A DNA stretch of 58,688 bases from a virus. Under the pieces are notes generated by a model that was given only the letters and a program-made list of their open reading frames with translations, searched no databases and was not told the origin of the DNA. The stretch lies in the IMG/VR virus record IMGVR_UViG_3300037041_002703, positions 1-58,688 of that record; one strand, written 5' to 3'. Numbering within the stretch: the first letter of the stretch is position 1; every line of letters starts with the position of its first letter. Below are positions 9,622-55,792 of this stretch, one piece after another. A program made the position numbers and the translations under genes.

Positions 9622-10367
9622 AAATGAAACAACACGAAAGAATATCTGAATGGGTAAAATCTTATGCTGAAAAAAATAAAATAAAATCATTGGTTGTTGG
9701 AGTTTCGGGGGGTATAGATTCTGCTGTTGTTTCCACCTTATGCGCTATGACAGGTTTACCCACGCATTGCGTTCTAATGCCAATTCATCAAAATCCTGAA
9801 CACACCAAAAGGGGTTCGAACCATATTAATTGGTTACAAACTAAATTTGAAAGGGTTGATTCACATGAGTTCAATTTATCGGAAGTTTATGATATCTTTG
9901 TTGATACTATGTCTTACGCAAAAAGTGAATTAGGGTTTGCAAATTCTCGTTCAAGATTAAGAATGACTGCATTATATCAACTAGCTTCGAGTACTAATGG
10001 TATTGTTGTGGGTACCGGAAATAAAATCGAGGATTTTGGTGTTGGTTTTTTTACCAAGTATGGAGATGGTGGTGTAGATATTTCACCAATAGCAGATTTC
10101 ACAAAAACTGAAGTATACGAAATCGCTAAACATTTAGGTATAAATCAAGAAATTATTGATGCAACACCAACAGATGGTTTATGGGGCGATGATAGAAATG
10201 ACGAAAGCCAAATTGGGGCGACTTACCCTGAGTTAGAATGGGCTATGGAATTTAAAAACAATAGAAATATTACGGAAAGAGAACAAGAAGTTTTATCAAT
10301 TTACAAAAAATTAAATTCTCAAAATAAACATAAAATGTTACCAATACCCATTTATAAAAAATCATGA
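9618..10367 (+). CDS. nadE: NAD+ synthetase, ammonia-dependent NadE type
   Basis: 249 residues. The N-type ATP pyrophosphatase loop SGGIDSA is at 30-36, and the NadE signature GTGNKIED plus FFTKYGDGGVDISP is at ~132-157. It converts deamido-NAD, ATP and an ammonia source to NAD+. No glutaminase domain is present, so it should use free ammonia. The typical length is kept, so it is probably active. It sits inside the sugar block with ATGA overlaps, directly before an NAD-dependent sugar-nucleotide dehydrogenase. It may top up NAD+ for such enzymes or counter host NAD-depleting defences; both ideas are inference. Confidence 0.9.
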   Translation: MKMKQHERISEWVKSYAEKNKIKSLVVGVSGGIDSAVVSTLCAMTGLPTHCVLMPIHQNPEHTKRGSNHINWLQTKFERVDSHEFNLSEVYDIFVDTMSYAKSELGFANSRSRLRMTALYQLASSTNGIVVGTGNKIEDFGVGFFTKYGDGGVDISPIADFTKTEVYEIAKHLGINQEIIDATPTDGLWGDDRNDESQIGATYPELEWAMEFKNNRNITEREQEVLSIYKKLNSQNKHKMLPIPIYKKS

Positions 10368-11533
10368 AAATAGGTGTAATAGGCGCTGGAAGACTAGGAA
10401 TTACGTTTGCATTATTGTGTGAAAAAGCGGGTTATGATGTTATTGTTTCAGATATTAGACAGGAATACATAGAAAAACTCAATAATAAGACTATTGATAC
10501 AGCTGAGCCAGAAGTCTTATTGATGCTACAAAAATCCAAAAATTTAAAAGCAACTCAAAAAAACAGTGAAGTAATTTCAGAGTCAGATGTGATTTATACT
10601 TTTGTACAAACACCATCTCTCCCATCTGGAGAATATGACATTACTTATCTAATGGAAGTAGTCGAAGATTTTGAAAAATTTGAAAACCATCAACAAGAAA
10701 TTCAAAACAAACTTTTTGTGATTGGTTGTACAACAAATCCAGGAGATACAAAAACAATTGAAGAAAAATTAGAACCTCTTAGTGTGATTGTTGCCTACAA
10801 CCCAGAATTTATTGCTCAGGGAGAAATAGTTAAAGGTCTTGAATATGCAGATTTAGTTCTTGTTGGAACTGAAAACTTAGAAACAATAAATATTTTAAAA
10901 CAAATATACGAAAAAATTCAAAAAACAGATGTTAAAATGTGTCCAATGTCTCCCACAGCTGCTGAAATTACAAAAATAGGTATTAATTGTTTTTTGACAA
11001 CAAAAATAAGTTATGCCAATATGATTGGTGAAATTTTAGTATCCTCAAAATTACATAATGAAGTTGATAAAGTTTTGGACACAATTGGTAAAGATAGTAG
11101 AATTGGACATAAATATTTGAACTATGGTTTCGGTTTTGGAGGACCCTGCTTACCAAGAGATAATCGAGCTTTGGGCAATTATGCAAAAAAAGTGGGTCTT
11201 GAAACAAATCTTCCTTATACAATCGATAATTTCAATTTAGAACATTCAAATTTTTTAAAAAGTTATTTCATAGGTCAAAACCCAAACAAAGAAATACCTT
11301 TTGTTTTCAACTACATTTCTTACAAAAAAGGGACAGATATGTTAGTAGAGTCCCAACAACTAAAATTAGCAAAAGATTTACTAGATGAGGGATATTCTGT
11401 CAACATTATTGAAGAAGATTCCATTTTAAACAATTCACAATTTATTAATGAAATTGAATCTGACTATCCTAATCAAGTTAAATTTTATAAATTAGGTTCA
11501 AATCCGAAGGGATTTAAAATAAATATGAATTAA
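10364..11533 (+). CDS. UDP-glucose/GDP-mannose-type 6-dehydrogenase
   Basis: 389 residues. An NAD-binding Rossmann motif GAGRLG (7-12), the family segment TAAEITKIGIN (~198-208, with K204) and the catalytic cysteine motif FGGPCLPRD (C262) are present; the C-terminal domain has SYKKGTDMLVES. These enzymes oxidise the sugar C6-OH of a nucleotide sugar twice with 2 NAD+, giving a uronic acid donor such as UDP-GlcA. It is somewhat shorter than the usual ~430 residues, trimmed at the C-terminus. It follows nadE with an ATGA overlap. Whether UDP-Glc, UDP-HexNAc or GDP-Man is used is uncertain. Confidence 0.88.
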   Translation: MKIGVIGAGRLGITFALLCEKAGYDVIVSDIRQEYIEKLNNKTIDTAEPEVLLMLQKSKNLKATQKNSEVISESDVIYTFVQTPSLPSGEYDITYLMEVVEDFEKFENHQQEIQNKLFVIGCTTNPGDTKTIEEKLEPLSVIVAYNPEFIAQGEIVKGLEYADLVLVGTENLETINILKQIYEKIQKTDVKMCPMSPTAAEITKIGINCFLTTKISYANMIGEILVSSKLHNEVDKVLDTIGKDSRIGHKYLNYGFGFGGPCLPRDNRALGNYAKKVGLETNLPYTIDNFNLEHSNFLKSYFIGQNPNKEIPFVFNYISYKKGTDMLVESQQLKLAKDLLDEGYSVNIIEEDSILNNSQFINEIESDYPNQVKFYKLGSNPKGFKINMN

Positions 11534-16010: not shown

Positions 16011-16642
16011 AAATAATAATTGTCGGTGGAAATGCCGGAGCTAAAATTGCTGCAGAAATCTTTGCGATGAATTTTCCTCATTGTGAGATTTTTTATGCGG
16101 AAACTTACTTAGAACAAGAAAAAGTAAATCAACTGGTTGATGATTATAAAAAAGTCCCGGAACTCCTTAGAGAGGGTAGTTACGAATATTTCATCGCAAC
16201 TGGTGATAATTTCCAAAGAGCAGAGATTTACAAATACATCTGGACTAATACGGTGATAGAACCTTTGAATTGCATTCATGCATCAGCAATAATCTCTTCT
16301 TCTGCTAAAATAGGTTATGGCAATTTGGTTTGCCCAACAGCTGTAATTCACACCGATGCCGAGATTGAGAACTGCACCATTATCAACACTGGGGCGATAA
16401 TCGAACACGATTGTAAGGTTAAAAACTTTGCTCAGGTTTCACCCAATGCAACCCTATGTGGTAGGGTAGGCATCGGGGAATATTGTTTTATAGGTGCTGG
16501 CTCAACTATAATCCCCAACAAGCAAGTAAGTAATAAATCTGTTGTCGCTGCTGGAAGTGTAGTCATTGAGTACATCCCACAGAATGTAATGGTTGCAGGT
16601 ACCCCCGCAAAAATCAAAAAGAAAGATTATTATGCAATTTAA
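16007..16642 (+). CDS. Sugar O/N-acyltransferase, NeuD/PglD type (left-handed beta-helix)
   Basis: 211 residues. A Rossmann-like N-terminal part (MKIIIVGGNAGAKIAAEI) is followed by hexapeptide repeats from ~90 (SAIISSSAKIGYGNLVCPTA). The family catalytic-histidine region is IIEHDCKV, and the C-terminal helix-capping VVAAGSVV and VMVAGTPAKIKK are present. PglD/NeuD-type enzymes acetylate amino sugars from acetyl-CoA as a trimer. The next gene encodes a sugar aminotransferase overlapping by 11 bases, so the pair likely makes an N-acylated amino sugar. Confidence 0.88.
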   Translation: MKIIIVGGNAGAKIAAEIFAMNFPHCEIFYAETYLEQEKVNQLVDDYKKVPELLREGSYEYFIATGDNFQRAEIYKYIWTNTVIEPLNCIHASAIISSSAKIGYGNLVCPTAVIHTDAEIENCTIINTGAIIEHDCKVKNFAQVSPNATLCGRVGIGEYCFIGAGSTIIPNKQVSNKSVVAAGSVVIEYIPQNVMVAGTPAKIKKKDYYAI

Positions 16643-17762
16643 TATACCCATTTTCCGATTAAAGTTTTCTCTTGGGTTCAAATTAAAGTTCCTTCGTGGA
16701 GCTTGGGACATCCTTTCCTCTGATAGACCTCTTGGTGAATCCAAATACGTAAAAGAGTTTGAAACAAAGTTTGCGAATCTTGTCGGAAGCAAATATGCTG
16801 TTGCCTGCAGCAACGGAACCACGGCAATTGAGCTGGCCCTTAAAACAATAGATGTTGCAGGAAAAAAAGTCCTATGTCCCAGCAATACATTTTTCGCAAC
16901 AACTGTTGCAATAAATAATGCAGGTGCCGAGGTAGTATTAGCTGATTGCGAAAAAGAAACTTTTTCCATTTCTTATAACCACCTTAAAAAAATTATCTCT
17001 GAGGACAAAATCGCAGCAGTGGTGATTGTTCATATTGGTGGTATAATCTCTAAAGACATCGCCAAGATTGTTAGCCTTTGCAAGAAACACAACATCCCCC
17101 TTATTGAAGATGCGGCTCACGCACAAGGTTCACAAACCTTGAATTTTACAGCCGGAACAATAGGTGATATTGCATGTTTCTCATTTTTCCCCACAAAAGT
17201 TATGACAACTGGAGAGGGTGGAATGGTTACCACAAATAACAAAGAATACTTCGAAAAAATCAAATCCCTAAAAAACTTTGGTAGAGATAATCAAAACGCT
17301 GGGATTATTATAAATTCCCAGGGTAACAACTTCAAAGTTCATGAGTTTACCGGACTAATGGGTTCCTTGGAATGCGATAGAGTTCTAGGTAGGGTAGCTA
17401 AAAGAACCTCTTTGCTGGATAGATATATGCAAAACCTGGAAGGGACAAGTTTCAAAGTAATTAACCAAAAAGAGGGTAGATGTTCCTACTACAAATGTAT
17501 TCTACTTTCTCCCTATAATACTGATGACCTTAAACAATACTGCAAGGACCATTCAATTTCTTTAACTGGGGAAGTGTACAAAATACCCGTGCACAAACAA
17601 CCCCTATATGCAGATAGTTTTGATGCTACACAACTAAAAAACACTAACTATATTGCAAATAAACACATTTGCCCCCCACTTTATCCGGAGCTATCCCTTA
17701 AAGAGGTGGATTACATCTGTGAGGTTTTGAAAAAATTTGATGATGAAAAACAGAGTCGCTAA
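16632..17762 (+). CDS. DegT/DnrJ/EryC1/StrS-family sugar aminotransferase
   Basis: 376 residues from ATG 16632; an upstream in-frame start at 16593 is inside the acyltransferase gene. Signature blocks: CSNGTTAIELAL (PLP phosphate), PLIEDAAHAQGS (PLP ring Asp and stacking region) and SFFPTKVMTTGEGG with the Schiff-base Lys. The enzyme aminates a keto-sugar nucleotide using glutamate and PLP. Together with the upstream acyltransferase it suggests an acylamino-deoxy sugar. No 4,6-dehydratase is in the window, so the keto precursor may come from the host or from elsewhere in the genome. Confidence 0.92.
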   Translation: MQFNIPIFRLKFSLGFKLKFLRGAWDILSSDRPLGESKYVKEFETKFANLVGSKYAVACSNGTTAIELALKTIDVAGKKVLCPSNTFFATTVAINNAGAEVVLADCEKETFSISYNHLKKIISEDKIAAVVIVHIGGIISKDIAKIVSLCKKHNIPLIEDAAHAQGSQTLNFTAGTIGDIACFSFFPTKVMTTGEGGMVTTNNKEYFEKIKSLKNFGRDNQNAGIIINSQGNNFKVHEFTGLMGSLECDRVLGRVAKRTSLLDRYMQNLEGTSFKVINQKEGRCSYYKCILLSPYNTDDLKQYCKDHSISLTGEVYKIPVHKQPLYADSFDATQLKNTNYIANKHICPPLYPELSLKEVDYICEVLKKFDDEKQSR

Positions 17763-22218: not shown

Positions 22219-22655
22219 TAAAACATTACATTTCACATCGAGGAAACGTCGATGGTAAAATTAAAAACATAGAGAACTCTCCAGATTATGTCCAAAGAGC
22301 TTTGTCTTTGGGATACGAAGTTGAAATAGACGTGTGGTTCGTTGATGACTCATTTTATTTGGGTCACGACGAACCGCTTTATTTGGTACAAGAATCGTTT
22401 CTGGAAAACGAAAATTTTTGGTGTCATGCAAAGAACGAAGAGGCTTTTAATAAAATGATGATAAACTCTAATATTCATTGTTTCTGGCATCAGACGGATG
22501 ATTATACTTTGACATCCAAAGGCATCCCCTGGGTCTTCCCCGGCAAAAAAGTTTATAATAATGGTATTTGGGTTTTACCTGAAAACACAATTTATAAAAA
22601 CATTATGTTGGATTGTTTGGGAATATGTTCTGATTATATTTCGAATTACAAATGA
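22215..22655 (+). CDS. GDPD/PI-PLC-like phosphodiesterase fold protein, short
   Basis: 146 residues from a GTG start overlapping the preceding stop. The N-terminal YISHRGN, then YEVEIDVWFVDDSFYLGHDEPLY, matches the catalytic layout of glycerophosphodiester phosphodiesterases (H-R-G, E-x-D, G-H-D). The protein is about half the usual length and lacks the later TIM-barrel strands, so it may be a reduced enzyme. In glycan clusters such proteins often sit beside nucleotidyltransferases, as here. Activity is unproven. Confidence 0.65.
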   Translation: MIKHYISHRGNVDGKIKNIENSPDYVQRALSLGYEVEIDVWFVDDSFYLGHDEPLYLVQESFLENENFWCHAKNEEAFNKMMINSNIHCFWHQTDDYTLTSKGIPWVFPGKKVYNNGIWVLPENTIYKNIMLDCLGICSDYISNYK

Positions 22656-24016
22656 TTAAATTAGTGGTTTTTGATTTAGATGGTGTTTTAGTTGAAGCAA
22701 AACAACTACACTATGAAGCTTTAAATGAAGCATTAACCAAACATGCACCCGAGTGTGTTATTACCTGGACTGAACACCTATCAAAATACGATGGTTTAAA
22801 AACAAAACAAAAACTCGAACTACTGTCCCTTGAAAAAGGTTTAAACAATAATATGTACTCCGAAATTTGGGAAGAAAAACAAAAGATTACAAATGAAAAA
22901 TTAAGAACAATAACCCCCCATTCTAATCTAATTACTCTATTAAAAAAACTATCTGAGGATGGATTTAAGATAGCTTGCTGCAGCAATTCAATAAGAAAGA
23001 CTGTTTTGACAGTATTATCAAAACTAAACATTATTGAATATTTCGACCAAATTCTTTCAAACGAGGATGTAAAAAATAGCAAACCACACCCGGAGATTTA
23101 TTGGAAGGTAATTTCAGAGATGGGCGTTATTGCAGAAGAAACATTAATAATTGAGGATTCACCTTATGGACTTTTGGCGGCATCAAGAACTCATGCTCCT
23201 ATACTAAGAGTTTCGTCACCAAAGGAAGTTACCATAGAAAATCTCTATGGAAAATTAAAAGAATTAAATGCAAAGTTTAAAATGAAGAAACCTAAATGGA
23301 CTGATGAAAAACTTAACGTTTTGATTCCAATGGCGGGAGCTGGTTCGAGATTTGAAAAAGCTGGTTATACATTTCCTAAACCACTTATTGATATTGAAGG
23401 GGACCCTATGATTAAATTGGTTACTGAGAACTTAAATCTACGGGCAAACTTTATTTACATAGTTCAAAAATCCCACCGGGAAAAATATAACCTAGACACA
23501 TTGCTTAATTTAATATCGCCCAACTGTAAAATTGTTGAGGTTGATGGTCTTACAGAAGGTGCTGCTTGCACAACCCTATTGGCTAAAGAATTTATTGATA
23601 ACGAAAATCCGCTAATAATGGCAAACTCAGACCAGTATATTGAATGGGACTCCAATGAGTTTATGTATAAGATGACAGAAACCAATTGTGATGGAGGAAT
23701 AGTCACTTTCAAATCTACGCACCCTAAATGGTCTTTTGCTAAGGTTAATGAAAATGGTCTAGTAAGTGAAGTAGCTGAAAAAAAACCCATCTCTGATATT
23801 GCCACAGTCGGGATATACTATTGGAAGAAAGGTGCGGAATATGTAAAATATGCTGAGCAAATGATTGAAAAAAATATAAGGGTAAATAATGAGTTTTATG
23901 TGTGTCCAGTTTTTAACGAAGCTATAGAGGACGGAAAAGAAATTAGGACCTTTGAAATAAAAAAAATGATGGGTTTGGGAACACCAGAGGATTTATCTAC
24001 CTATTTGAGACGATAA
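22652..24016 (+). CDS. Bifunctional HAD phosphatase-sugar nucleotidyltransferase fusion
   Basis: 454 residues. Residues 1-~205: HAD hydrolase of beta-phosphoglucomutase/phosphatase type (VVFDLDGVLVEA, CCSNSIRKTV, K in NSKPHPEIY, IIEDSPYGLLAA). Residues ~215-454: NTP-transferase domain (LIPMAGAGSRFEKAGY, then PKPLIDIEGDPM, ANSDQYIEW with a metal Asp, EFYVCPVFNEAI). One chain could remove a phosphate from a sugar bisphosphate and then make the nucleotide sugar, as in heptose pathways, but the substrate is not known. It ends the core of the sugar-nucleotide genes; a 46-base AT-rich gap follows. Confidence 0.85.
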   Translation: MIKLVVFDLDGVLVEAKQLHYEALNEALTKHAPECVITWTEHLSKYDGLKTKQKLELLSLEKGLNNNMYSEIWEEKQKITNEKLRTITPHSNLITLLKKLSEDGFKIACCSNSIRKTVLTVLSKLNIIEYFDQILSNEDVKNSKPHPEIYWKVISEMGVIAEETLIIEDSPYGLLAASRTHAPILRVSSPKEVTIENLYGKLKELNAKFKMKKPKWTDEKLNVLIPMAGAGSRFEKAGYTFPKPLIDIEGDPMIKLVTENLNLRANFIYIVQKSHREKYNLDTLLNLISPNCKIVEVDGLTEGAACTTLLAKEFIDNENPLIMANSDQYIEWDSNEFMYKMTETNCDGGIVTFKSTHPKWSFAKVNENGLVSEVAEKKPISDIATVGIYYWKKGAEYVKYAEQMIEKNIRVNNEFYVCPVFNEAIEDGKEIRTFEIKKMMGLGTPEDLSTYLRR

Positions 24017-36359: not shown

Positions 36360-36581
36360 ATGCAAGAGTTTGTACCATTCCCATTGTTTGACAGAATTAA
36401 CATTCAAAATTCAGAAGATTTCGAAAAACTTATTGAGGACCTCAATAATGAACAATCAACTTTCATAATTCAGATTGCATTGGAAAAAGCTTACAATTCT
36501 GGGATATTTAGTTTAAGTGAATCTGAGATTTTATCAAAAGCTTTACGTTTGAATAATAAAAAGGAAAATAATCAAATCTAA
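36360..36581 (+). CDS. Small phage protein, possibly the first half of a frameshifted gene
   Basis: 73 residues from ATG 36360 (a TTG at 36312 is upstream and inside the divergent gene's promoter). MQEFVPFPLFDRINIQNSE; helical and acidic. Just after its stop, the -1 frame stays open with coding-like sequence to 36769. This may be one gene with a frameshift, a programmed slip, or two genes. Confidence 0.55.
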   Translation: MQEFVPFPLFDRINIQNSEDFEKLIEDLNNEQSTFIIQIALEKAYNSGIFSLSESEILSKALRLNNKKENNQI

Positions 36582-36812: not shown

Positions 36813-38609
36813 TTATCTCAATTCTCTCAAGTCGAACGTTCTAACACCATCAACTGTGATTCTACCATAGAACCTGTTATTTACAACCTTCTTAGCGTAT
36901 CTAGTCATGATACCCTTGATAGGTGTAAAGTTGAATGGGTTATACATCGTAGGAGTGAGTTGTAAAGGTACGTATGGAGCGTAGATGTATCCAGTGTCAA
37001 GTAACGAAGTACCTTTGTGTCCTAACAACACCTGGTTTGCAGGGAAGTAAGGGTCACGGTAAACTTGATATCTACCAGCCAAAGTACCAACTCTCTCGAT
37101 ACCCATGTTGTATTGGTCTTGCTCAGGAGCTGCGTTTGATACGTGGAAGTACTCCAAGTCATCAAAGATTGCAGAAACCTCAGAAGATACAACAATCCAG
37201 TTTGCGCCACCTCTTAGAGTTGATTTGTGGATTTGTGCAGAGATTTGGTTGATTGCAGTGATAAGCGTCTGGTTCCAGTCCTTCTGAGTGTAAGGAGTAG
37301 TTCCAGCTGAGAATCTCTTCCATCCGTTGTAGTCCCAACGAAGGTTCCAAGATGCAGCTTTTCTCAAGTCTCTCAAAATCTCACGGTCAATTTCAGCAGC
37401 TACTTGCTCAGACAACAACGCAGTCAATTCTGCTTCAGCGTCGATGTTGTGGAATGCAGCTACGTCTTGAGCCATTTCAGGAGACCATTGTGCTCTAAGT
37501 TTTCTTTCAGTAACCGAAACAGTCACAGACTGAAGGTCGAAAGAAACTTCACCAATTTTATCTTCGAATTCAAGATTCTTGTAGATTCTGTAAGTTGCAG
37601 TGAATGCCTGGTTTACTGTGGTAATTTCTGATGCAAATGTAGAACCAGTGTAACCGTCAAGTGATGAATCACCACATGAAAGACAAACAGGAACTTGCAA
37701 GTCAACTTCAAGGTAGATTTTACCCTCTTGGTCACAAACGTCGTAGTATGTACCACCATCAGTTTTAGAGTTAGGGAACACAAGAGTGTCATTTTGTCCG
37801 TATTGTACAATACCCTTACCGTATTTTTGAGTTACAACTCTGAATAGGTAGTTATTTTGAGTATTTGCAGAAGTATACAAGTTTCCAGCAGCACCACGGA
37901 TTTGAAGGTCAGTCAAGAATTCTTCTGTGTCCATAGGTTGACCGTTAGGTCCGATAAGTTGTCCAGCACCAGCTGTAGCAAATCCAGACATCACAATCAG
38001 AACCTTTCTGTAGTTACCCACAGTGTAAGCCGAAGGAATAAGTTGGTCAGCTAACCAAGCAACAGTAGTTACATCAGCTGAAATAGCTGAGAAAGAACCT
38101 TTAGAGTAGTCGTAAAGTCCTGGTGGGTCCAAAGCTGGTTCGTTACCTTCGTAGAATCTATCGTAAAGGTCTTTTTGAGTGTTATAGTCATAACCACTGT
38201 TAGGAGTTTGACCCGCAGCTGCATTAGGTGCTCCGTAAGGTGCCCAGTGCTCGTTTAAACCAGCTCCAGTGTAAGACTGAATGTTTGGTACGAAGTAGAA
38301 CAACTTACCGATAGGAAGGTTCATCGCTTGTACAGAAACGATATCGTTAGCCAAAAGCTTAGAGAATACTCTACGTACAATTGGGAAAACAACGGTTTCG
38401 AATGAACCTGAGTCTGCTGTAGACGATGCTTCGTTTATCAAATGTGACGCTTGGTTTTCATACAACTGCGCGATATTTTCTTTAAGGTGACCGTTAAGTC
38501 CTTCGAGGAAACCTAACTTGTCCCATTTGTTGATTGTATCTTCTTTGATAACTTTAAGGTGCTTAAGACCGATGTTACCAACAAGACCACTTTCTAATAA
38601 TGCTCCCAT
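36813..38609 (-). CDS. g23: Major capsid protein, T4 gp23-like
   Basis: 598 residues, right after the scaffold gene in T4 order and followed by a strong terminator. Start MGALLESGLVGNIGLKHL. A maturation site is visible as ASHLINE|ASSTADSG (after E60), followed by FPIVRRVFSKLLANDIVSVQ, which aligns with the T4 segment just after its cleavage point at residue 65. The HK97-type fold is expected. The remaining landmarks (GIMTRYAKKVVNNRFYGRI near the C-terminus) match gp23-like proteins. Codon use is more regular and C-ending than neighbours, as expected for a highly expressed gene. No TATTTAT element is seen in the 35-base gap to the scaffold gene. Confidence 0.93.
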   Translation of the reverse strand: MGALLESGLVGNIGLKHLKVIKEDTINKWDKLGFLEGLNGHLKENIAQLYENQASHLINEASSTADSGSFETVVFPIVRRVFSKLLANDIVSVQAMNLPIGKLFYFVPNIQSYTGAGLNEHWAPYGAPNAAAGQTPNSGYDYNTQKDLYDRFYEGNEPALDPPGLYDYSKGSFSAISADVTTVAWLADQLIPSAYTVGNYRKVLIVMSGFATAGAGQLIGPNGQPMDTEEFLTDLQIRGAAGNLYTSANTQNNYLFRVVTQKYGKGIVQYGQNDTLVFPNSKTDGGTYYDVCDQEGKIYLEVDLQVPVCLSCGDSSLDGYTGSTFASEITTVNQAFTATYRIYKNLEFEDKIGEVSFDLQSVTVSVTERKLRAQWSPEMAQDVAAFHNIDAEAELTALLSEQVAAEIDREILRDLRKAASWNLRWDYNGWKRFSAGTTPYTQKDWNQTLITAINQISAQIHKSTLRGGANWIVVSSEVSAIFDDLEYFHVSNAAPEQDQYNMGIERVGTLAGRYQVYRDPYFPANQVLLGHKGTSLLDTGYIYAPYVPLQLTPTMYNPFNFTPIKGIMTRYAKKVVNNRFYGRITVDGVRTFDLRELR

Positions 38610-40549: not shown

Positions 40550-41266
40550 TTAACGATTCAAATAATCGGTTAATTTTTTCATTAAATCAACTGACTTACC
40601 CATTCCAGAGTCAGAAATTTTTTGTTTTTTTTCTTCTTCTAGATTTTCTTCATACGTACTTCTTTCCTCAGGACTACCAAAAAGGTATGCACCTGGAGTT
40701 GATGGTGAGGAAACTAAGTCAAAGCAAATCAACTCAAAATCTTCTTGAACTTCATTTTGGTCACCTTTTTTTGCTAGCGAACCAACACCTCTCGACGACA
40801 CACCCATAGTCACTCCCTGACGCATTAAATTAGCCGCGATATCACCCTTAGTAGAAACTATTCCACTTTCATGAAATCCTGGTGATGTTAACAATTTTAA
40901 TTTACCCATTAAAATATTTCCATCCCACCAAACGTCGGTAATTATATGTGAAACTCGGTCCAAATCAATTAAAGAAGATTCTGGATGGTTCAACTCTGAA
41001 GTTGATAATCCTTTTTTAATAGCTGTTTTATACCTTTCAGCTTCTCTTTTTAAAATTTTTTCCGGATACACTCTGCCGTTTCTGTTTGGAACACCGTATT
41101 TCTGTAGTACAGCAAAAAATTCAAATGGATTTCTATAGTCAATTTCTTTGGTTTCCCTGAGAATGGCTTCATTTAAAGGGTCTCTTGGTGATACATATCC
41201 AGCATCCATTTCTACTAGAATGCCTCTGCCACTATCTTTAGGACCCAAAACTGGTAAATCTTTCAT
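40550..41266 (-). CDS. g21: Prohead core protease, T4 gp21-like serine protease
   Basis: 238 residues. Catalytic His in TSELNHPESS (H94) and catalytic Ser in GVTMGVSSRGVG (around S157/S158), with the family segment FELICFDLVSSPSTPGAY downstream. The fold is the herpesvirus-assemblin-like protease that digests the scaffold and trims capsid proteins after (I/L)-x-E. It lies in T4 order upstream of scaffold and capsid genes. TATTTATC sits 13 bases upstream. Probable cleavage targets visible in this window are MCP at E60 and small proteins ending their N-terminal helix in x-x-E. Confidence 0.92.
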   Translation of the reverse strand: MKDLPVLGPKDSGRGILVEMDAGYVSPRDPLNEAILRETKEIDYRNPFEFFAVLQKYGVPNRNGRVYPEKILKREAERYKTAIKKGLSTSELNHPESSLIDLDRVSHIITDVWWDGNILMGKLKLLTSPGFHESGIVSTKGDIAANLMRQGVTMGVSSRGVGSLAKKGDQNEVQEDFELICFDLVSSPSTPGAYLFGSPEERSTYEENLEEEKKQKISDSGMGKSVDLMKKLTDYLNR

Positions 41267-41292: not shown

Positions 41293-41745
41293 TTATAGCG
41301 TAGTTTTTATTTTTAGTTTTTCTTTACTTGAACTAAACGTAAAATATTCATTTCTTATAATGCAATCCTTGTAAATTTCTTTGATAATTTTACGAATTAG
41401 CTCTTTTAGTTGCGACCCTTTAAAATCCAATTCTATTTTAGTATAAAGATTAATTTCAAGATTCATAAATGATTTTTTATTAAGTTGAATACCACTAGTT
41501 CTCAGGTCTAAGTCAACTATAAATTTTTCTGAAAATATTTCTCGATTAATACTGTGATAAACTGAATGTTTTATGTCTCGAGACAAATTTGCAACAACTC
41601 GTTGCCAATTTTCGCTTTCTTTCTTTGGACAAACCCACGTTTGGATGTTTATGTACATCGACTTTAGGTTTTTAGAATCCACGGTACCAAATGATGTTTT
41701 TAAAGATTCATATTGATTTAATTTTACCGTCTTACCTTTCTTCAT
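41293..41745 (-). CDS. Hypothetical protein between portal and prohead protease
   Basis: 150 residues from ATG 41745; an in-frame ATG at 41781 would cover the bS21 upstream region. MKKGKTVKLNQYESLKTS; mixed alpha/beta with WVCPKKESENWQRVV and a basic C-terminus. It lies where T4 carries genes 67/68 (small core proteins) but I see no resemblance. Co-oriented with the head genes. Confidence 0.55.
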   Translation of the reverse strand: MKKGKTVKLNQYESLKTSFGTVDSKNLKSMYINIQTWVCPKKESENWQRVVANLSRDIKHSVYHSINREIFSEKFIVDLDLRTSGIQLNKKSFMNLEINLYTKIELDFKGSQLKELIRKIIKEIYKDCIIRNEYFTFSSSKEKLKIKTTL

Positions 41746-41768
41746 TAATATTAAAGTTGAAAATAGAT

Positions 41769-41776
41769 TATTTATA
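41769..41776 (+). promoter_or_regulatory. TATTTATA/TATAAATA element between bS21 and a head gene
   Basis: TATTTATA on the plus strand, 46 bases before the bS21 ATG; on the minus strand it reads TATAAATA, 23 bases before the ATG at 41745. Either or both genes could use it. Confidence 0.3.
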
Positions 41777-41822
41777 TTCAAAGAATAAGAAACTTTTTAA
41801 CAATTCCAAATATTTCTAGAAT

Positions 41823-42008
41823 ATGTTAATAGTTGAAGTAGATAAGAATATCGAAAAAGCGCTTAAGATACTGAAGTCAAAAGTTATTAAAACTAGACAA
41901 AATCAGTTGTTAAACGCCAAAAAAGAATTTGTAAAAAAATCTGTATTAAAAAGAAACAAGATAACCAAAGCGGTCTATGTTCAACAAATTAGGAATCAAG
42001 TAGAATAG
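41823..42008 (+). CDS. rpsU: Ribosomal protein bS21, phage-encoded
   Basis: 61 residues, MLIVEVDKNIEKALKILKSK. The pattern is that of Bacteroidota bS21: a short N-terminal strand, a Lys-rich first helix (NIEKALKILKSKVIKTRQNQ), then KKEFVKKSVLKRNKITKAVYVQQ matching the family F-x-K-P-S-V-x-K-R...A-x-Y-x-Q block, except that the usual Pro is Lys. bS21 sits on the 30S platform near the mRNA exit, beside the anti-Shine-Dalgarno. It is the only plus-strand gene in this part of the head region, and its 3' end overlaps the convergent gene at 41989 by 20 bases. The identification is strong by pattern; the effect on host ribosomes is inferred. Confidence 0.85.
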   Translation: MLIVEVDKNIEKALKILKSKVIKTRQNQLLNAKKEFVKKSVLKRNKITKAVYVQQIRNQVE

Positions 42009-42696
42009 ATTTTTCCAAATTCTTTAGTTTGACATAACTAATTTGACTGTACTTTTCATTACCAATTTTTCCGATTGTTTCGGAAATTTTTCCTTTAAGT
42101 TCTTCATCACCTTCTTTTTCTGAAAGAAGTTGTAATTTGTTCATAGCAGACTCCTTAAGGGTGTTAAATTCTGTTTCCAAATCAACATTATTGGATGCAA
42201 TGACATGGAAAATTTCTTTTCTAGAATTTTCATCCAAATTTTCTATGTATTTTGATAATGTTTGATTAGCAATCGAAACCATGGACTTTAAAGGAATTTT
42301 AGGAGAATCAATAGGTTTTTTTATTGATTCCATTAACTTACTAATAATCTCTTTTTTTGAAATCAATCGTTCTCTAATATCTACTTTATTAAAGTAAACT
42401 AAGTTATCAATATTTTCATATAAATTATGAACCTTTTCACCATTTTTAGGTAACTGAGTTATTTCCAATAAGTGTCTTACAACATTTAGCGCTTCTTCAA
42501 AAAACTCTTTTGCTTCATTTTCAGACAACCCTTGTGGTTTGGATAAGTCATCGTAAATTGAATATATTTTTGAAAAAGATTTGTTTGATAAAACATTATG
42601 TCTAAATTCTCTCAATGTTTGCTTGAAAGTTGAGGTGTCCTTGTAGGACTCTACTAGGTTTTTTTCTATAATAGATTTAATTTGTCCGAAAGTCAT
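41989..42696 (-). CDS. Hypothetical helical protein downstream of portal gene
   Basis: 235 residues, MTFGQIKSIIEKNLVESYKD. Almost wholly alpha-helical and charged, with SFSKIYSIYDDLSKPQGLSE and KEIFHVIASNNVDLETEF. No cysteines, no membrane segment. Position between portal and protease suggests a prohead core or assembly factor (the slot of T4 gp67/gp68), but sequence alone does not show it. The ATG has TATTTATA 19 bases upstream. Confidence 0.6.
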   Translation of the reverse strand: MTFGQIKSIIEKNLVESYKDTSTFKQTLREFRHNVLSNKSFSKIYSIYDDLSKPQGLSENEAKEFFEEALNVVRHLLEITQLPKNGEKVHNLYENIDNLVYFNKVDIRERLISKKEIISKLMESIKKPIDSPKIPLKSMVSIANQTLSKYIENLDENSRKEIFHVIASNNVDLETEFNTLKESAMNKLQLLSEKEGDEELKGKISETIGKIGNEKYSQISYVKLKNLEKSILLDS

Positions 42697-42723: not shown

Positions 42724-45570
42724 TTACGAATTTAATAACTTATCTAGTTCATCATTTAATTTACCTAAACTTTGCTGACCAACACCTAAATTTAAATATT
42801 TTTTACCATATAAATTAGATTCAATCAATAAATTCAAATCTTTACCCCTTATTGATTCTGGGGTTATTTCAGCTTCTTCGGGAGCTGGTGTTTCAGGTGT
42901 TTCGGGAACTCCAGGTATACCACCAGTATCCCCACCACCAAAATCTTCTCCGCCTAAAGCACCACCTAAGTCAGGAATACTTCCTCCACCCCCACCTAAT
43001 GAAGCGGCTGCAGGTTCAGAAGTTTCTCCTGGAGGAGCAGCTGGAGCTCCCTCTCCAGGTTTGTTGCCGTATAAAGCATCAATCTGGTCAAATATACCAG
43101 TTTTAGAAATTACTGTTGGGGTATTTTTAAGTTCTTCACCAATTGCCCTTTCCATTCTTTGCTGTAGCAGGTCAGTCTTAATTTCGTCATCAGACCAATT
43201 AAAAATGTGTTTTTTAGCCCATGTAGAAGATGCTGGTTGAATGCCATTTCCTGGGTCAGAAACCAAATCACGATAAAGTAATACTTTTTCCTTCCATATA
43301 TCAACTTTAAGCAAATCTGCCTGTGTTGAGGGGTTTGTGAGCCCCAAAGTAAAATTAGAAATTTCTTCTTCGAATCCTAAAATAAATAAATGCACTATGG
43401 CAATTTTATTTAATTCTTGAATCATCGATTTTTGAATTCGATTAATAGTACGGGCAAAACGAATATCCTGTAAAGCTAAACTTTTACCATCACCAACAAC
43501 TTCTTCAAATCCAAGAAACGCCTTCGGAATACGTAGAGCGGTTACCAGTTTTTTCTGGATATATTCAATGTCCGCAATTTCAGAAAGATTTTGGGCACCG
43601 GGCAAAGTATCAATAGGACTAGGTTGCGCTGGGTCTCTTACAGGTATAAAATAATCCTGGTCAACAGCCATCTGATTGAATCGCATATCAACATTACCTG
43701 TTTTCGAATCGACAATTTGTTCTCTTTTGAATTTGTTGGCAACACGTTGTACATAAGCTTCAACATCATCATCATTCATGTTTCCAACATAAACCTTAAA
43801 AATTCTTCTTTCTGGCGCACGAGATGTACGATAAATTAACATGGCATCCTCAGATAGCAACAATTGTTTCCAAATTCTTCTTGATTTTTCAAGCATAGAA
43901 GTACCATAAGGAAGTTTTCTATCGTCCCCAAGCAATCTAAAATGTGCGATTTCCCATGGTTGGAATTCCATGTTTTGGGGTTTCCAAGTAAATCTCAATC
44001 CTTTGTCATCCGTATTTTGAGGGACACCGATTGATGAATTTCTAGTTGCAAGCCCTTGTTCAAATCTTTCGATTTCTATATTGGGCAACTGCTGGCAACC
44101 TATAACCCCTTTTTCAGGGTCTAATCTCATGTAAACAAAATTATCACCATACTTACAGGTGTTTCTTGTCCACATTGCAAGGTTAGTATTAATGTCTAGT
44201 GCGTTATTGAATAAATCAACTAGTACTGACTTAATTCTTTTTGACTCTGAATAAACCTGAAGAATTAGACCATCCTCATTGGGTGTAGTAGATTCCTCGG
44301 CATAAATGTCCAACGCAGCAGAAATTTCTGGAGTGTTGTGTGAAAAAATAGTGTCTGTGGCAAAATTCTTATAGCCAGGAACTGTTAAGTCGTACACAGG
44401 AATAATGCCAAAAGGTTCAATAGATTCAATTTTGTGATTTAAATTGATTACATCACCTTTTGATTTTGCTGTGGAATATTTTGACTTTTCAATACCATAA
44501 GCTTCTAAAAATGTTTGCCAATCAGAATATCCTGAATTAACAACCTCTCTTTGTATTTTCCTATATGAAACATTTAATTTTGTTGCTGTTTTTTTGAGAG
44601 TTTTTTCACCTCTAGCTGCTTCAATAATATTGTCAAAACCAATTGTGAAATACGATGGATTGTTTACACCAGAACGCTTACCATCCCAAGACATTTTACC
44701 CTTTCTTTTTGCAACCTCAGACATTTTTTCCCTAAACTTAGGATTGGACCATAATTTTTCGTTGTTCAATTTTGCGTGATAAGCCCTATGTTCAGAAATT
44801 TTCATTATTTGAAGATTTTCTGGTTGATTATTCTTACCATTAAAATCAATATGATGAACTTCTTCGTCTTTTTCTATCGAGATGTTGTAAAACCACTGTG
44901 CAATTAAATTATGTTCGGAAATCCAGCCATTATGGCCTTCACTAGAATTACAAGTATAAATCCAATTATACTTTTCATTATTGAAAAAAGATTTACGATA
45001 AAAGGGCATCATAGAATCTCCTTTTTGTAAATTCATTACTCTTTCAAAAGAACCATCCCGTTTCATTAATTGATGTTCCCATGTTGCAATTATAAATGAA
45101 CCATCATCAAAGGTGACTTTATATGTCATTTCATCCCTTGTGTAGTGAGCATTTCTTGCTTTTGCTGGCACAACCTTTTTTAAATTGTGGTCATAAGAGT
45201 ATGTTATAAATTCGTAGTTTGGCCCTTTATCTGCGAGCTCTTTAATGGTAATAAATCCATCAGGTGTTGCTATTTTAGTATCACCATGAATACAATACTC
45301 CATAGATTCGTAATCGTAGTAGGACGCTAATCTGTTTGGCTCATAATAGACTGCTTGGGTATAAAGATTATTCTCAACCTTAGCAAACTGATTAGCTAAA
45401 TAAAACGATTGTTTGGCTTGAAGTTTTTCTCTTTCATATTCTGCCTTGTCAGTTGTTCTAAGAAGTTCTTTCTTATCTAACTTATAGACAGGAAAATCCT
45501 GATTTAACAAAGCGTCAGGGCCCAAAGCTCTACTTAATCTTTGCCAAACCGTAAAATTTCTATTTTCCAT
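42724..45570 (-). CDS. g20: Portal protein (T4 gp20-like) interrupted in frame by an HNH intein
   Basis: 948 residues as translated; 628 after removing the 320-residue intein (residues 93-412). Extein landmarks: the N-terminal FTVWQRLSRALGPDALLNQ, then YYDYESMEY joined after splicing to TPEISAALDIYAEES, the gp20 pattern. Later blocks include IEIERFEQGLATRNSSIG, IAHFRLLGDDRKLPYGTSML, RAPERRIFKVYVGN, KTGNVDMRFNQM and DTLPGAQNLSEIADIEY. A Gly/Pro-rich C-terminal tail follows. The dodecamer forms the DNA entry/exit vertex. Gene order (terminase, portal, protease, capsid) supports the call. Confidence 0.93.
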   Translation of the reverse strand: MENRNFTVWQRLSRALGPDALLNQDFPVYKLDKKELLRTTDKAEYEREKLQAKQSFYLANQFAKVENNLYTQAVYYEPNRLASYYDYESMEYCIHGDTKIATPDGFITIKELADKGPNYEFITYSYDHNLKKVVPAKARNAHYTRDEMTYKVTFDDGSFIIATWEHQLMKRDGSFERVMNLQKGDSMMPFYRKSFFNNEKYNWIYTCNSSEGHNGWISEHNLIAQWFYNISIEKDEEVHHIDFNGKNNQPENLQIMKISEHRAYHAKLNNEKLWSNPKFREKMSEVAKRKGKMSWDGKRSGVNNPSYFTIGFDNIIEAARGEKTLKKTATKLNVSYRKIQREVVNSGYSDWQTFLEAYGIEKSKYSTAKSKGDVINLNHKIESIEPFGIIPVYDLTVPGYKNFATDTIFSHNTPEISAALDIYAEESTTPNEDGLILQVYSESKRIKSVLVDLFNNALDINTNLAMWTRNTCKYGDNFVYMRLDPEKGVIGCQQLPNIEIERFEQGLATRNSSIGVPQNTDDKGLRFTWKPQNMEFQPWEIAHFRLLGDDRKLPYGTSMLEKSRRIWKQLLLSEDAMLIYRTSRAPERRIFKVYVGNMNDDDVEAYVQRVANKFKREQIVDSKTGNVDMRFNQMAVDQDYFIPVRDPAQPSPIDTLPGAQNLSEIADIEYIQKKLVTALRIPKAFLGFEEVVGDGKSLALQDIRFARTINRIQKSMIQELNKIAIVHLFILGFEEEISNFTLGLTNPSTQADLLKVDIWKEKVLLYRDLVSDPGNGIQPASSTWAKKHIFNWSDDEIKTDLLQQRMERAIGEELKNTPTVISKTGIFDQIDALYGNKPGEGAPAAPPGETSEPAAASLGGGGGSIPDLGGALGGEDFGGGDTGGIPGVPETPETPAPEEAEITPESIRGKDLNLLIESNLYGKKYLNLGVGQQSLGKLNDELDKLLNS
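44335..45294 (-). other. Intein with HNH endonuclease domain inside the portal gene
   Basis: 320 residues, Cys1 to Asn320, with Thr as the first C-extein residue. Block A is CIHGDTKIATPDG, block B GSFIIATWEHQLMKRDG (the T-x-x-H pair), block F PVYDLTVPGYKNFATD and block G IFSHN. A central homing endonuclease has an HNH motif at intein residues ~145-175 (EVHHIDFNGKNNQPENL). All splicing residues are present, so self-removal is expected. The insertion point is in a conserved portal segment, typical of inteins targeting essential sites. Confidence 0.93.
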
Positions 45571-45610: not shown

Positions 45611-47371
45611 TTACCTACCAAATAACCAACCATATTTTTCATAGTCAGCCCTTGACGCTGAGTAATTTTTTTGGTTGGGCATACCTTGCTGAGAAAATTG
45701 AGGTAAAGCCGGATTAAAATATTCGGATTTATCTTTGTTTTCAGTTATTACTGTGTTCCATGAATTTAACATCGCTTTAGTATGGTTGACTACCTTAACT
45801 AATGAAGGGAAAGCAGCTTCTGCAACATATAAAGCCATGGAAATCGCCATGATACAGTCATCGTGATGACCTCTTTGGTGGTCAGGTCTACCATTCATGT
45901 AAATAAAAGTTCCCATTTCGTTAATCAATCTATTAGACTTTATTTTAAATTCATGTCTGATAGCTTCTTCAAATGAAGCGATAATTTGAACTCTTTTATT
46001 ATTAAAATTTATCCCGGGAATTTTTTCTTTTATTTTTGGGTCATACTTCCATTTATTATTCATATCAACACCGTCGTAATAAAAATTTTCGTACCCTAGC
46101 TCTTGTAATTTCCTGGCTGTAGCAACCCCCATGCCACCAGTCAAATCAATAACACACAAAGCACTATACATTATTCCCCATTTATAAGCAATTTCTGCGA
46201 GAGTGTCTGGAGGTAGTTTACCAACAAACTCTAATACTTGTTCGCGAGAATCGAAATCAATAATTTCAATACAAGAAAAATCTTCCGAATCACCTCTGGA
46301 AACGTCAATTCCCATTACATATTTATGTTCATTTTCTGGCTCTTTCCAAATCCAGAGTTGGCCCCCAACTAATTTGGCTTCGGGTTCTCTAACATCGTTC
46401 TTAACAATTGTCTGCAACATTTGAGCGTCAAACACATTGTCTCCAGAACCCAGAAAATTACATTCCAATTCCTGTGCTACCTTCCTTCGGTCGTATTTTA
46501 ATTTTTTAACCATGCTCTCGAACCAGGATGAGCATGGTTTGTAACCATCATTGATGTATTGATGTAAGATTGAAAGTTGCCTTTCTCTTCTGTTTTCAGC
46601 AGATAAATCTAGAATAACATCCTTTGGGTATTCTTCTTTGTTAAGCAAATAATGTACAAGGTCGTTAGTTTTGACCATGTATAAATCTTTTGTGTATCTA
46701 GGGTCTCTGTACCAATACATTTCCGTAATCTTGAAATCATTCATATTACGTAATGCTTGGTCATAAATTTCATAATAAATGGGGTCAAAACCATTAGGTG
46801 TAGAAATCACAATAACTTTACCCCCAGTTGAGAGCGAAGCCATACATGCTGCCCAGAAGTCACTATCAGCTTCGATAAAGGCTGCTTCGTCAAAAATAAG
46901 TGTTGTTGGCGTGTATCCTCTAAGGGCGTCTTTTGAAGTTGCTACAGCTTTTACTTCACAACCATTTGAAAGTTTAAAATGTCTAGCAGAATTTTTTTCC
47001 GGTGCAAAACTTATGCCTACCCAAGGGGGCCATTGTTCTGTAAAACCCCGAATTTTGTTAGCAAATTCAACTGAAGTGTCAAGTTTATTTGCAATAATCA
47101 AAACTTTTTCGGGTTTTTCTTTTCTCGCAAAAGCTAATCTTTTACTCGCCCAAGCAGCTGTTACAGTGGAAACACCTGCTTGACGATACTTCAAAGCAAT
47201 ATTTTCATTGAAATTTTCATAATCCTCAACCAATTGAACTTGGTCTTGGAAAAGCTCCAAAGGGACATACCTTGAAACGGTATTGTCGTAAGTTTGAAGA
47301 TAAGCTTTAAGAGCATAAGGAGTGCTTTTCATACACTTCTTATACTCAATGATTACTTGTTCTTTTGTCAT
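45611..47371 (-). CDS. g17: Terminase large subunit, T4 gp17-like
   Basis: 586 residues. ATPase: Walker A variant RQAGVST (63-69), Walker B TLIFDEAAF (D161, E162), and motif III VISTPNG (~188). RNase H-like nuclease: GIDVSRGDSED (D356), VIDLTGGMG (D409) and GHHDDCIMA near the C-terminus (third acidic site). The motor pumps DNA through the portal and cuts concatemers. Its start follows the upstream stop by six bases, so it is translated with the 47378-48667 gene. No TATTTAT element directly upstream. Confidence 0.95.
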   Translation of the reverse strand: MTKEQVIIEYKKCMKSTPYALKAYLQTYDNTVSRYVPLELFQDQVQLVEDYENFNENIALKYRQAGVSTVTAAWASKRLAFARKEKPEKVLIIANKLDTSVEFANKIRGFTEQWPPWVGISFAPEKNSARHFKLSNGCEVKAVATSKDALRGYTPTTLIFDEAAFIEADSDFWAACMASLSTGGKVIVISTPNGFDPIYYEIYDQALRNMNDFKITEMYWYRDPRYTKDLYMVKTNDLVHYLLNKEEYPKDVILDLSAENRRERQLSILHQYINDGYKPCSSWFESMVKKLKYDRRKVAQELECNFLGSGDNVFDAQMLQTIVKNDVREPEAKLVGGQLWIWKEPENEHKYVMGIDVSRGDSEDFSCIEIIDFDSREQVLEFVGKLPPDTLAEIAYKWGIMYSALCVIDLTGGMGVATARKLQELGYENFYYDGVDMNNKWKYDPKIKEKIPGINFNNKRVQIIASFEEAIRHEFKIKSNRLINEMGTFIYMNGRPDHQRGHHDDCIMAISMALYVAEAAFPSLVKVVNHTKAMLNSWNTVITENKDKSEYFNPALPQFSQQGMPNQKNYSASRADYEKYGWLFGR

Positions 47372-53736: not shown

Positions 53737-53767
53737 TTGGAAATGTCCGTTTTTTGTTTAACCTTTG
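53737..53767 (+). promoter_or_regulatory. Host-type promoter of the ClpC-like gene
   Basis: TTG (53737-53739), 19-base spacer, then TAACCTTTG (53759-53767), one base longer than the TAnnTTTG consensus. The ATG at 53789 is 21 bases beyond. Confidence 0.45.
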
Positions 53768-53788
53768 TACAAATCAAATTATAAAACC

Positions 53789-55792
53789 ATGAGCGAAACT
53801 ATGGACGACGACGACGATAAGGCCCTCGGTAGGAAGAAACCCTCTTCTGATTCTAGAACTCCTGTTCTGGATAATTTTTCCCGTGACCTTAATAAACTTG
53901 CTGAGCAAGGAAAGCTCGACCCAGTAATTGGTCGAGAAAAAGAAATCGTGCGCATTGCACAGATTCTCTCTCGTAGAAAAAAGAACAACCCTATCATCCT
54001 AGGTGAACCCGGTTGTGGTAAGACCGCAATTGTGGAGGGTCTTGCGAGCTTGATTGTAAATGGAAGCTGTCCCAAGAACCTTCTTGATAAGCGCATCGTC
54101 ACCCTTGACCTTACAGCAGTTGTTGCTGGTACAAAATACCGTGGTCAGTTTGAGGAGCGTCTTAAGGTTATCTTGGAGGAACTTTCCCAAAACCCCAACA
54201 TCATCATCTTCATTGATGAAATTCATACCTTAATTGGTTCGGGTAACTCTTCCGGTAGCCTGGATGGTTCCAACATCTTTAAACCTGCTTTGGCTAGAGG
54301 GGAAATCCAGTGCATCGGTGCTACCACGTTGGATGAATACCGCAAATCATTTGAAAAGGACGGAGCTTTGGAGCGTCGCTTCCAAAAGGTAATGGTGGAC
54401 CCATCCACCGTTGCTGAGACCATTCAAATTCTCACCAACATCCGAGACCGCTACGAGGCATTTCACAAGGTATCGTACTCTGATGAAGTCATCGAGTTGT
54501 GTGTAAAGCTCGCTGACCGCTACATCACCGACCGAGAATTCCCTGACAAAGCATTTGATATCCTTGATGAAGTGGGGGCTCGCAGTCAGACCGAGCAGAA
54601 GATTCCAGAGATAATTGAGGAGCTTAAACATAAAGCTGCTGATATTAAGCTTCAGAAGATGGAAGTTGTCAAAAAGCAGAACTACGAAGAAGCTGCGGCC
54701 CTTCGTGATAAAGAACGGAATATTCTTGTAAAACTTCAAAATGAGAAGAAGAAGTTCGAACAAGAGTCCGCAACCCATCGTGTTCCAATTACCGTGGAAC
54801 AGGTATACGATGTCGTATCTAATATGACCAAAATTCCGGTGAGCAAAATGTCAATTGATGACACCAACGCTCTTATCAATATGGACAAGGTTCTTATGAG
54901 CAAGGTCATTGGTCAAGATGAAGCGGTCTCCAAGATTGTTAAATCAATTCGTAGAAACCGCATCGGCATTAAAGACCCCAACCGTCCGATTGGTTCGTTT
55001 ATATTCCTTGGTTCAACGGGTGTTGGTAAGACTCACCTAGCAAAGCAAATTGCAAAGGAGATGTTTGGTTCAGAAAGCGCTCTTATCCGCGTTGACATGA
55101 GCGAATACCAGGAGAAGCACACAATTTCCCGATTGGTTGGAGCGCCTCCGGGATATGTGGGTTACGAAGAAGGTGGACAGCTGACCGAGCAAGTCAAAAA
55201 CAAACCTTATGCTGTAATCCTATTCGATGAAGTTGAAAAGGCACACAAGGACATCTTTTCGATTTTGCTCCAGATTCTAGATGATGGTCACGCAACCGAT
55301 TCATTGGGACGCAAAATTAACTTCAAGAACACCTTGATTATCATGACCACAAACCTTGGGGTTAAGAAACTACAGGATTTTGGTTCCGGAATCGGTTTTT
55401 CTTCCAACAAGTATTCAAACGAGGAGGCAAAAAAACAAATTTTGATGAAGGAAATGAAGAACTTCTTCTCACCTGAATTCATCAACCGTATCGACGATAC
55501 GATTGTCTTTGAGACCCTGTCTCAGGATAACATCGAAAAAATCGTTGGTTTGGAACTTGAGAAGCTCTCCAAGCGATTGGGTGAGATGAAGTACAAGATT
55601 GTTATGGACAAAACCGTGACCGAATACATTGCTAAAATAGGATTCGACCAGGTTTATGGTGCACGCCCAATAAAGCGAGCCATCCAGGACAAAATCGAAG
55701 ATTTTCTTTCGGAGCTTATCTTGATTGGCAAACTCAAAGAGAACCGCAAATACACCATCAAGGTGGTGGATGAAGAGGTGAAAATCTCCTAG
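53789..55792 (+). CDS. ClpC-like AAA+ unfoldase with ClpP-docking tripeptide
   Basis: 667 residues; ATG 53789 chosen over a TTG at 53765. D1: Walker A GEPGCGKT (72-79), Walker B FIDEIH (D143, E144). A UVR-like middle segment (KKQNYEEAAALRDKERN, ~295-311) is typical of ClpC. D2: Walker A GSTGVGKT (408-415), Walker B ILFDEVEKAH (D480, E481). The segment GSGIGFSSN contains I-G-F at 535-537, where ClpA/ClpC dock ClpP; ClpB lacks it. The usual N-terminal Clp-N repeat domain is missing, so substrate or adaptor recognition must differ. Base composition is more GC-rich than neighbours, suggesting later acquisition. Followed by a strong terminator. Confidence 0.93.
   Translation: MSETMDDDDDKALGRKKPSSDSRTPVLDNFSRDLNKLAEQGKLDPVIGREKEIVRIAQILSRRKKNNPIILGEPGCGKTAIVEGLASLIVNGSCPKNLLDKRIVTLDLTAVVAGTKYRGQFEERLKVILEELSQNPNIIIFIDEIHTLIGSGNSSGSLDGSNIFKPALARGEIQCIGATTLDEYRKSFEKDGALERRFQKVMVDPSTVAETIQILTNIRDRYEAFHKVSYSDEVIELCVKLADRYITDREFPDKAFDILDEVGARSQTEQKIPEIIEELKHKAADIKLQKMEVVKKQNYEEAAALRDKERNILVKLQNEKKKFEQESATHRVPITVEQVYDVVSNMTKIPVSKMSIDDTNALINMDKVLMSKVIGQDEAVSKIVKSIRRNRIGIKDPNRPIGSFIFLGSTGVGKTHLAKQIAKEMFGSESALIRVDMSEYQEKHTISRLVGAPPGYVGYEEGGQLTEQVKNKPYAVILFDEVEKAHKDIFSILLQILDDGHATDSLGRKINFKNTLIIMTTNLGVKKLQDFGSGIGFSSNKYSNEEAKKQILMKEMKNFFSPEFINRIDDTIVFETLSQDNIEKIVGLELEKLSKRLGEMKYKIVMDKTVTEYIAKIGFDQVYGARPIKRAIQDKIEDFLSELILIGKLKENRKYTIKVVDEEVKIS

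Follow-up and report, generated by a model that had tools for sequence, protein, structure and literature searches.

Why should a phage keep a gene for ribosomal protein bS21 amid its head genes, on the strand opposite to them, and what would the product do to the ribosomes of the host? Among ribosomal proteins encoded by phages, bS21 is the most frequent. The stretch of DNA analysed here (the window; a 58.7-kb virus record of 58,688 nucleotides whose capsid, protease, portal and terminase genes are of the T4 type) contains at 41823-42008 (+) a 61-residue frame with an ATG start, which a preliminary description had taken for a Bacteroidota-type bS21. This identification is borne out by a Pfam match, a match to a protein of solved structure, individual residues and a tree. 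The frame passes the PF01165 (Ribosomal_S21) model with 30.3 bits against a gathering cut-off of 27 (E 3.4e-7), and the same model is matched by 20 of 20 members of the phage clade described below. Its best solved relative is the 64-residue bS21 of F. johnsoniae (7jil, E 6e-8), a host protein of the same family whose R46, K51 and Y54 are kept; an alignment with host bS21, proposed earlier as a check, thus does show similarity. A far weaker match (E 1.4) was to 7qv1, a bS21 of the B. subtilis type. The window copy misses the NCBIfam S21p equivalog TIGR00030 (15.4 versus a cut-off of 28.95), for which the F. johnsoniae-type host bS21 scores 54.7. Scores in the phage clade range from 15.4 to 30.0; L042 (30.0) and L061 (29.2) pass, and L008, L016 and L068 fall below the cut-off. 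Being above the Pfam cut-off and below the equivalog cut-off, the window copy is to be seen as a diverged bS21 member. PHROGs held no bS21 family matching the window protein. The AlphaFold model of this protein is one long helix (residues 10-60, pTM 0.47), for which Foldseek found no PDB match, and it was uninformative.

A scan of IMG/VR yielded 79 viral loci encoding 33 distinct bS21 proteins. Where dS was unsaturated and could be estimated, pairwise dN/dS values among these relatives were 0.06-0.17, and this synonymous-biased divergence indicates that the protein is under purifying selection. A chance reading frame was rejected in view of the 79 homologous viral loci and the low dN/dS. Judged from its sequence, the gene is a diverged bS21 homologue under purifying selection. 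In a maximum-likelihood tree limited by its small number of columns (64), the rows of which were Bacteroidota and viral only and the bootstrap of which was not settled, the phage clade forms one group (support 98/98). Its sister is a set of phages that share its gene order (L169-L171; support 98/96), and both nest in a 90-row branch, drawn open, together with Flavobacteriaceae (F. johnsoniae-type) bS21 (support 90/100). Among the Bacteroidota and viral rows of this tree, the window protein is therefore nested with Bacteroidota bS21.

The surroundings of the gene are conserved. On one side lie, all on the opposite strand, a divergent gene of no assigned function (41293-41745 (-)), the prohead protease of the T4 gp21 type (40550-41266 (-); PF03420, E 2.7e-23), the scaffold gene and the major capsid protein of the T4 gp23 type (36813-38609 (-); PF07068, E 5.1e-74). 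The frame of the divergent gene as listed (41293-41781) opens at a TTG, and the ATG start at 41745 was our choice. On the other side, again on the opposite strand, are a convergent gene of no assigned function (41989-42696 (-); a weak phrog_31701 match, E 3.2e-5), the portal protein of the T4 gp20 type, whose gene includes, in frame, an intein that carries an HNH endonuclease motif (42724-45570 (-); PF07230, E 1.6e-72, and PF14890, E 4.6e-12) and the terminase large subunit (45611-47371 (-); PF03237, E 2e-13, and phrog_2, E 8e-37). The 3' end of the convergent gene overlaps that of the window bS21 gene by 20 bp, and an overlap of 4-31 bp was present in every relative checked. By tblastn, these neighbours, the divergent gene included, are identical in order and strand in 32 of the 33 bS21 types as far as the contigs extend, the exception being L036. 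The antisense placement amid head genes was thus described correctly, since the cluster at about 36.8-48.7 kb is otherwise minus-stranded. Within this cluster proper, bS21 is also the lone plus-strand gene, as had been claimed; the claim fails just past the capsid gene, where a small plus-strand frame (36360-36581 (+)) that adjoins this gene is conserved in relatives. Other window genes, likewise on the plus strand, encode a UDP-glucose/GDP-mannose dehydrogenase, a DegT-type aminotransferase, a HAD/nucleotidyl transferase and a ClpA/B-type ATPase (10364-11533, 16593-17762, 22652-24016 and 53765-55792). The sugar, aminotransferase and Clp gene kinds are those reported for published bS21 phages.

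For the comparison of residues, 33 distinct phage proteins were set against 68 distinct Flavobacteriaceae-type sequences; each set was found from a seed (one phage query and one flavobacterial query), and 'fixed' is meant within these sets. The phage clade shows fixed or near-fixed changes from the Flavobacteriaceae type, the F. johnsoniae host protein included: F/Y19L, R21S/G, F23V, D24I, G27K/R, T28Q and P41K. Residues L16, K17, K20, K22, T26, L32, K40 and R46 are kept, and K51, A52 and the aromatic residue at position 54 (once His) are nearly or wholly so. All 33 distinct phage proteins have an aromatic residue or His at position 54 (Y in 27, F in 5, H in 1), and Tyr52 of the window protein aligns with Y54 in F. 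johnsoniae numbering. This aromatic residue of bS21 stacks on A1534 of the 16S tail (PMC9976891). The retention of Tyr54 suggests that the phage copy more likely preserves than abolishes the occlusion of the anti-Shine-Dalgarno (anti-SD). In view of the equivalog miss and the clade-wide changes at positions 19, 21, 23, 24, 27, 28 and 41, its ribosomal role may nevertheless differ from that of the host protein, and positions 19-28 and 41 are named host/phage differences that can be probed for function. The preliminary description had noted that the proline of the K-P-S-V block is replaced by lysine. Lysine is indeed found at position 41, but it is not an oddity of the window copy, as P41K occurs in 32 of the 33 distinct phage proteins. 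Pro41 is retained in the sister lineage L169-L171, which has the same neighbours, and P41K therefore probably arose inside the phage lineage.

The leaders of the phage genes differ strikingly from those of Flavobacteriaceae rpsU. SD strength was scored as the most stable pairing that the 25 nt directly upstream of the start codon can form with AUCACCUCCUUUCU, which we take to be the 16S tail. The leader of the window gene (41773-41822 (+)) reaches -1.3 kcal/mol, and all 26 distinct leaders of the phage clade score between -3.3 and +2.0 kcal/mol. In contrast, all 79 sampled Flavobacteriaceae rpsU leaders, a few of them from bins labelled otherwise, score between -17.5 and -23.3 kcal/mol (Mann-Whitney p-value of 1.4e-12, computed on distinct leaders that are non-independent owing to their relatedness). 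These values agree with the SD near -20 given by McNutt et al. 2023 for rpsU of F. johnsoniae (PMC9976891). A wrongly placed start codon does not account for the missing SD, because a scan from -120 to +12 revealed no site better than -8.0 in the phage clade. The window leader and the 26 phage leaders also all stay short of the extended SD (below -13 kcal/mol) of autoregulated Bacteroidota rpsU. Similarly, no SD was found in the last 25 nt of the leaders on 10 more viral contigs with a more host-like bS21, which represent about four lineages. Two viral loci were set aside from this comparison. L173 encodes a distant bS21 and has an SD of moderate strength. L162 was rejected as an independent case of SD loss because its protein and leader are near-identical to those of the bacterial loci L237 and L239, which likewise have no SD; this contig may be a bacterial stretch.

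A strong SD is not a property of every Bacteroidota rpsU gene. Of 89 bacterial rpsU leaders sampled across the phylum, at least 54 were at or below -13, a lower bound because the mechanical choice of starts went wrong in some cases. The argument thus hangs on the host of the window phage; among the leaders compared, the contrast between phage and host is strongest for Flavobacteriaceae-like hosts.

The other genes of the window resemble its bS21 gene in this respect. In none of the 54 ATG-started genes does the duplex within the 20 nt before the start reach -9 or lower, and scores at gene starts did not differ from those at mock positions (Wilcoxon p-value of 0.25). When a 25-nt stretch was used, one window gene reached -9.6, as compared to -10.7 at mock positions. 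Without SDs, the mRNAs of this phage would offer no SD-based signal for selecting them. A different motif, TATTTAT, occurs up to 60 nt upstream of gene starts in 14 of 67 cases in sense orientation versus 4 in antisense; a location around -21 is frequent. Examples lie upstream of structural genes (41288, 42724, 36350 and 52016 on the minus strand; 32918 and 55854 on the plus strand), and the motif is perhaps a late promoter element. The variant TATTT[ACG][TA] is present in 24 of 27 bS21 leaders, where shuffled sequences would give 4.5, and usually lies at -12. In the window leader it reads TATTTCT, and its position, -12, is shared by most relatives. Should this variant be a -10 element, the bS21 mRNA would be nearly leaderless.

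What, then, might the phage protein do? In F. johnsoniae, bS21 represses its own gene rpsU through the strong SD; ribosomes lacking bS21 initiate faster on this mRNA, whereas replete ribosomes do better on SD-less mRNAs, and Y54 matters in that system (PMC9976891). In such a system, a phage bS21 with position 54 kept and an SD-less mRNA would be produced regardless of the loop, with feedback falling on the host gene alone. The reading that we prefer, at about even chances, is that a working, diverged bS21 enters host 30S subunits late, outside the feedback loop, thereby repressing host rpsU and favouring SD-less mRNAs. The phage protein would be made late in infection, a timing taken for the window phage from its relatives, from an mRNA without SD. 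Since bS21-replete ribosomes would translate this mRNA, its synthesis would escape the loop and the protein could accumulate. It would then enter the 30S pool of its Bacteroidota host and keep the anti-SD covered in all subunits, which would support initiation on mRNAs without SD, whether of phage or of host origin. Repression of the SD-dependent host rpsU would cause new 30S subunits to carry the phage version. A changed choice of the mRNAs on which host ribosomes start, as the preliminary description had proposed, is possible. Against the preferred reading, it should be noted that SD-lessness is the default state in Bacteroidota and may therefore reflect a lack of selection rather than a device.

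A more far-reaching version, which seems to us possible though doubtful, is that the phage turns the autoregulatory circuit against its host: the SD-less mRNA would go unsensed, host rpsU would be switched off, and the takeover of the 30S pool would reinforce itself. McNutt et al. 2023 considered phage bS21 and proposed that the loop may serve as a counter-defence (PMC9976891); a takeover of this kind, if true, would defeat it.

Chen et al. 2022 proposed that phage bS21 replaces that of the host and that, owing to changes in its N-terminal part, ribosomes come to favour the mRNAs of the phage. The clade-wide fixed changes at 19-28 and 41 are in line with this idea, as are the reported divergence of the helix that faces the mRNA and the late co-expression (PMC9723584). 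However, as far as SD usage, the one feature compared, is concerned, the window genes carry no label that would set them apart from host mRNAs, and we regard this explanation as rather unlikely. Less probable still is that the gene merely maintains bS21 stocks as host transcription fails late, with neither specificity nor host rpsU meaningfully affected. The retained core residues and Y54, the late expression of relatives (PMC9723584) and the fact that genes of Bacteroidota ordinarily have no SD all accord with such a supply function, but the fixed clade-specific substitutions exceed what neutral upkeep would suggest, and a single long-lived lineage at one locus suggests a specific role. Lastly, the protein might be a factor that descends from bS21 and binds RNA or protein but has lost its function in the 30S subunit, for instance in favour of a capsid or regulatory role. 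This would suit the sub-threshold equivalog score of the window copy and the fixed place within the head cluster, but is highly improbable given that the conserved R46, K51, A52 and aromatic 54 accord with a persisting contact to the 16S tail and that close relatives pass the equivalog cut-off. The missing SD provides a handle for telling whether the host loop is taken over, phage mRNAs are selected or bS21 is simply supplied.

Much of the biology of this locus is already published. For Bacteroidota jumbo phages (bS21 clades a-e), Chen et al. 2022 reported the gene, its antisense place in the head cluster, its late expression and the aromatic position 54, together with the Bacteroidota link and the mRNA-choice hypothesis (PMC9723584). 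The window phage matches these phages as they are described, with no difference of kind found: its Bacteroidota-type bS21 has the aromatic Y54, lies antisense to its surroundings, with a hypothetical gene on either side and the genes for TerL, portal, prohead protease and major capsid protein around these, and is accompanied by sugar, Clp and aminotransferase genes. The main text of that study contains no SD analysis of bS21 leaders (PMC9723584), and none for phage bS21 genes was found among the openly accessible papers searched; the missing SD is apparently an unreported feature. Mizuno et al. 2019 studied another phage-encoded bS21 of a myovirus, that of the Pelagibacter phage HTVC008M, which enters E. 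coli ribosomes and left them nearly inactive, at about 5% of wild type (PMC6375957). The ribosome entry speaks for the reading preferred here, the loss of activity against it. HTVC008M differs from the window phage in having a Proteobacterial host and a demonstrated ribosome entry.

In two Bacteroidota genomes, a sigma-70 gene has as its immediate neighbour an additional bS21 gene that lacks a strong SD (L274 in G110 and L271 in G095), and the other rpsU gene of these genomes has a strong SD (L269, -17.6, and L240, -19.4). L274 and L271 possibly represent a chromosomal alternative bS21 that is paired with a sigma factor.
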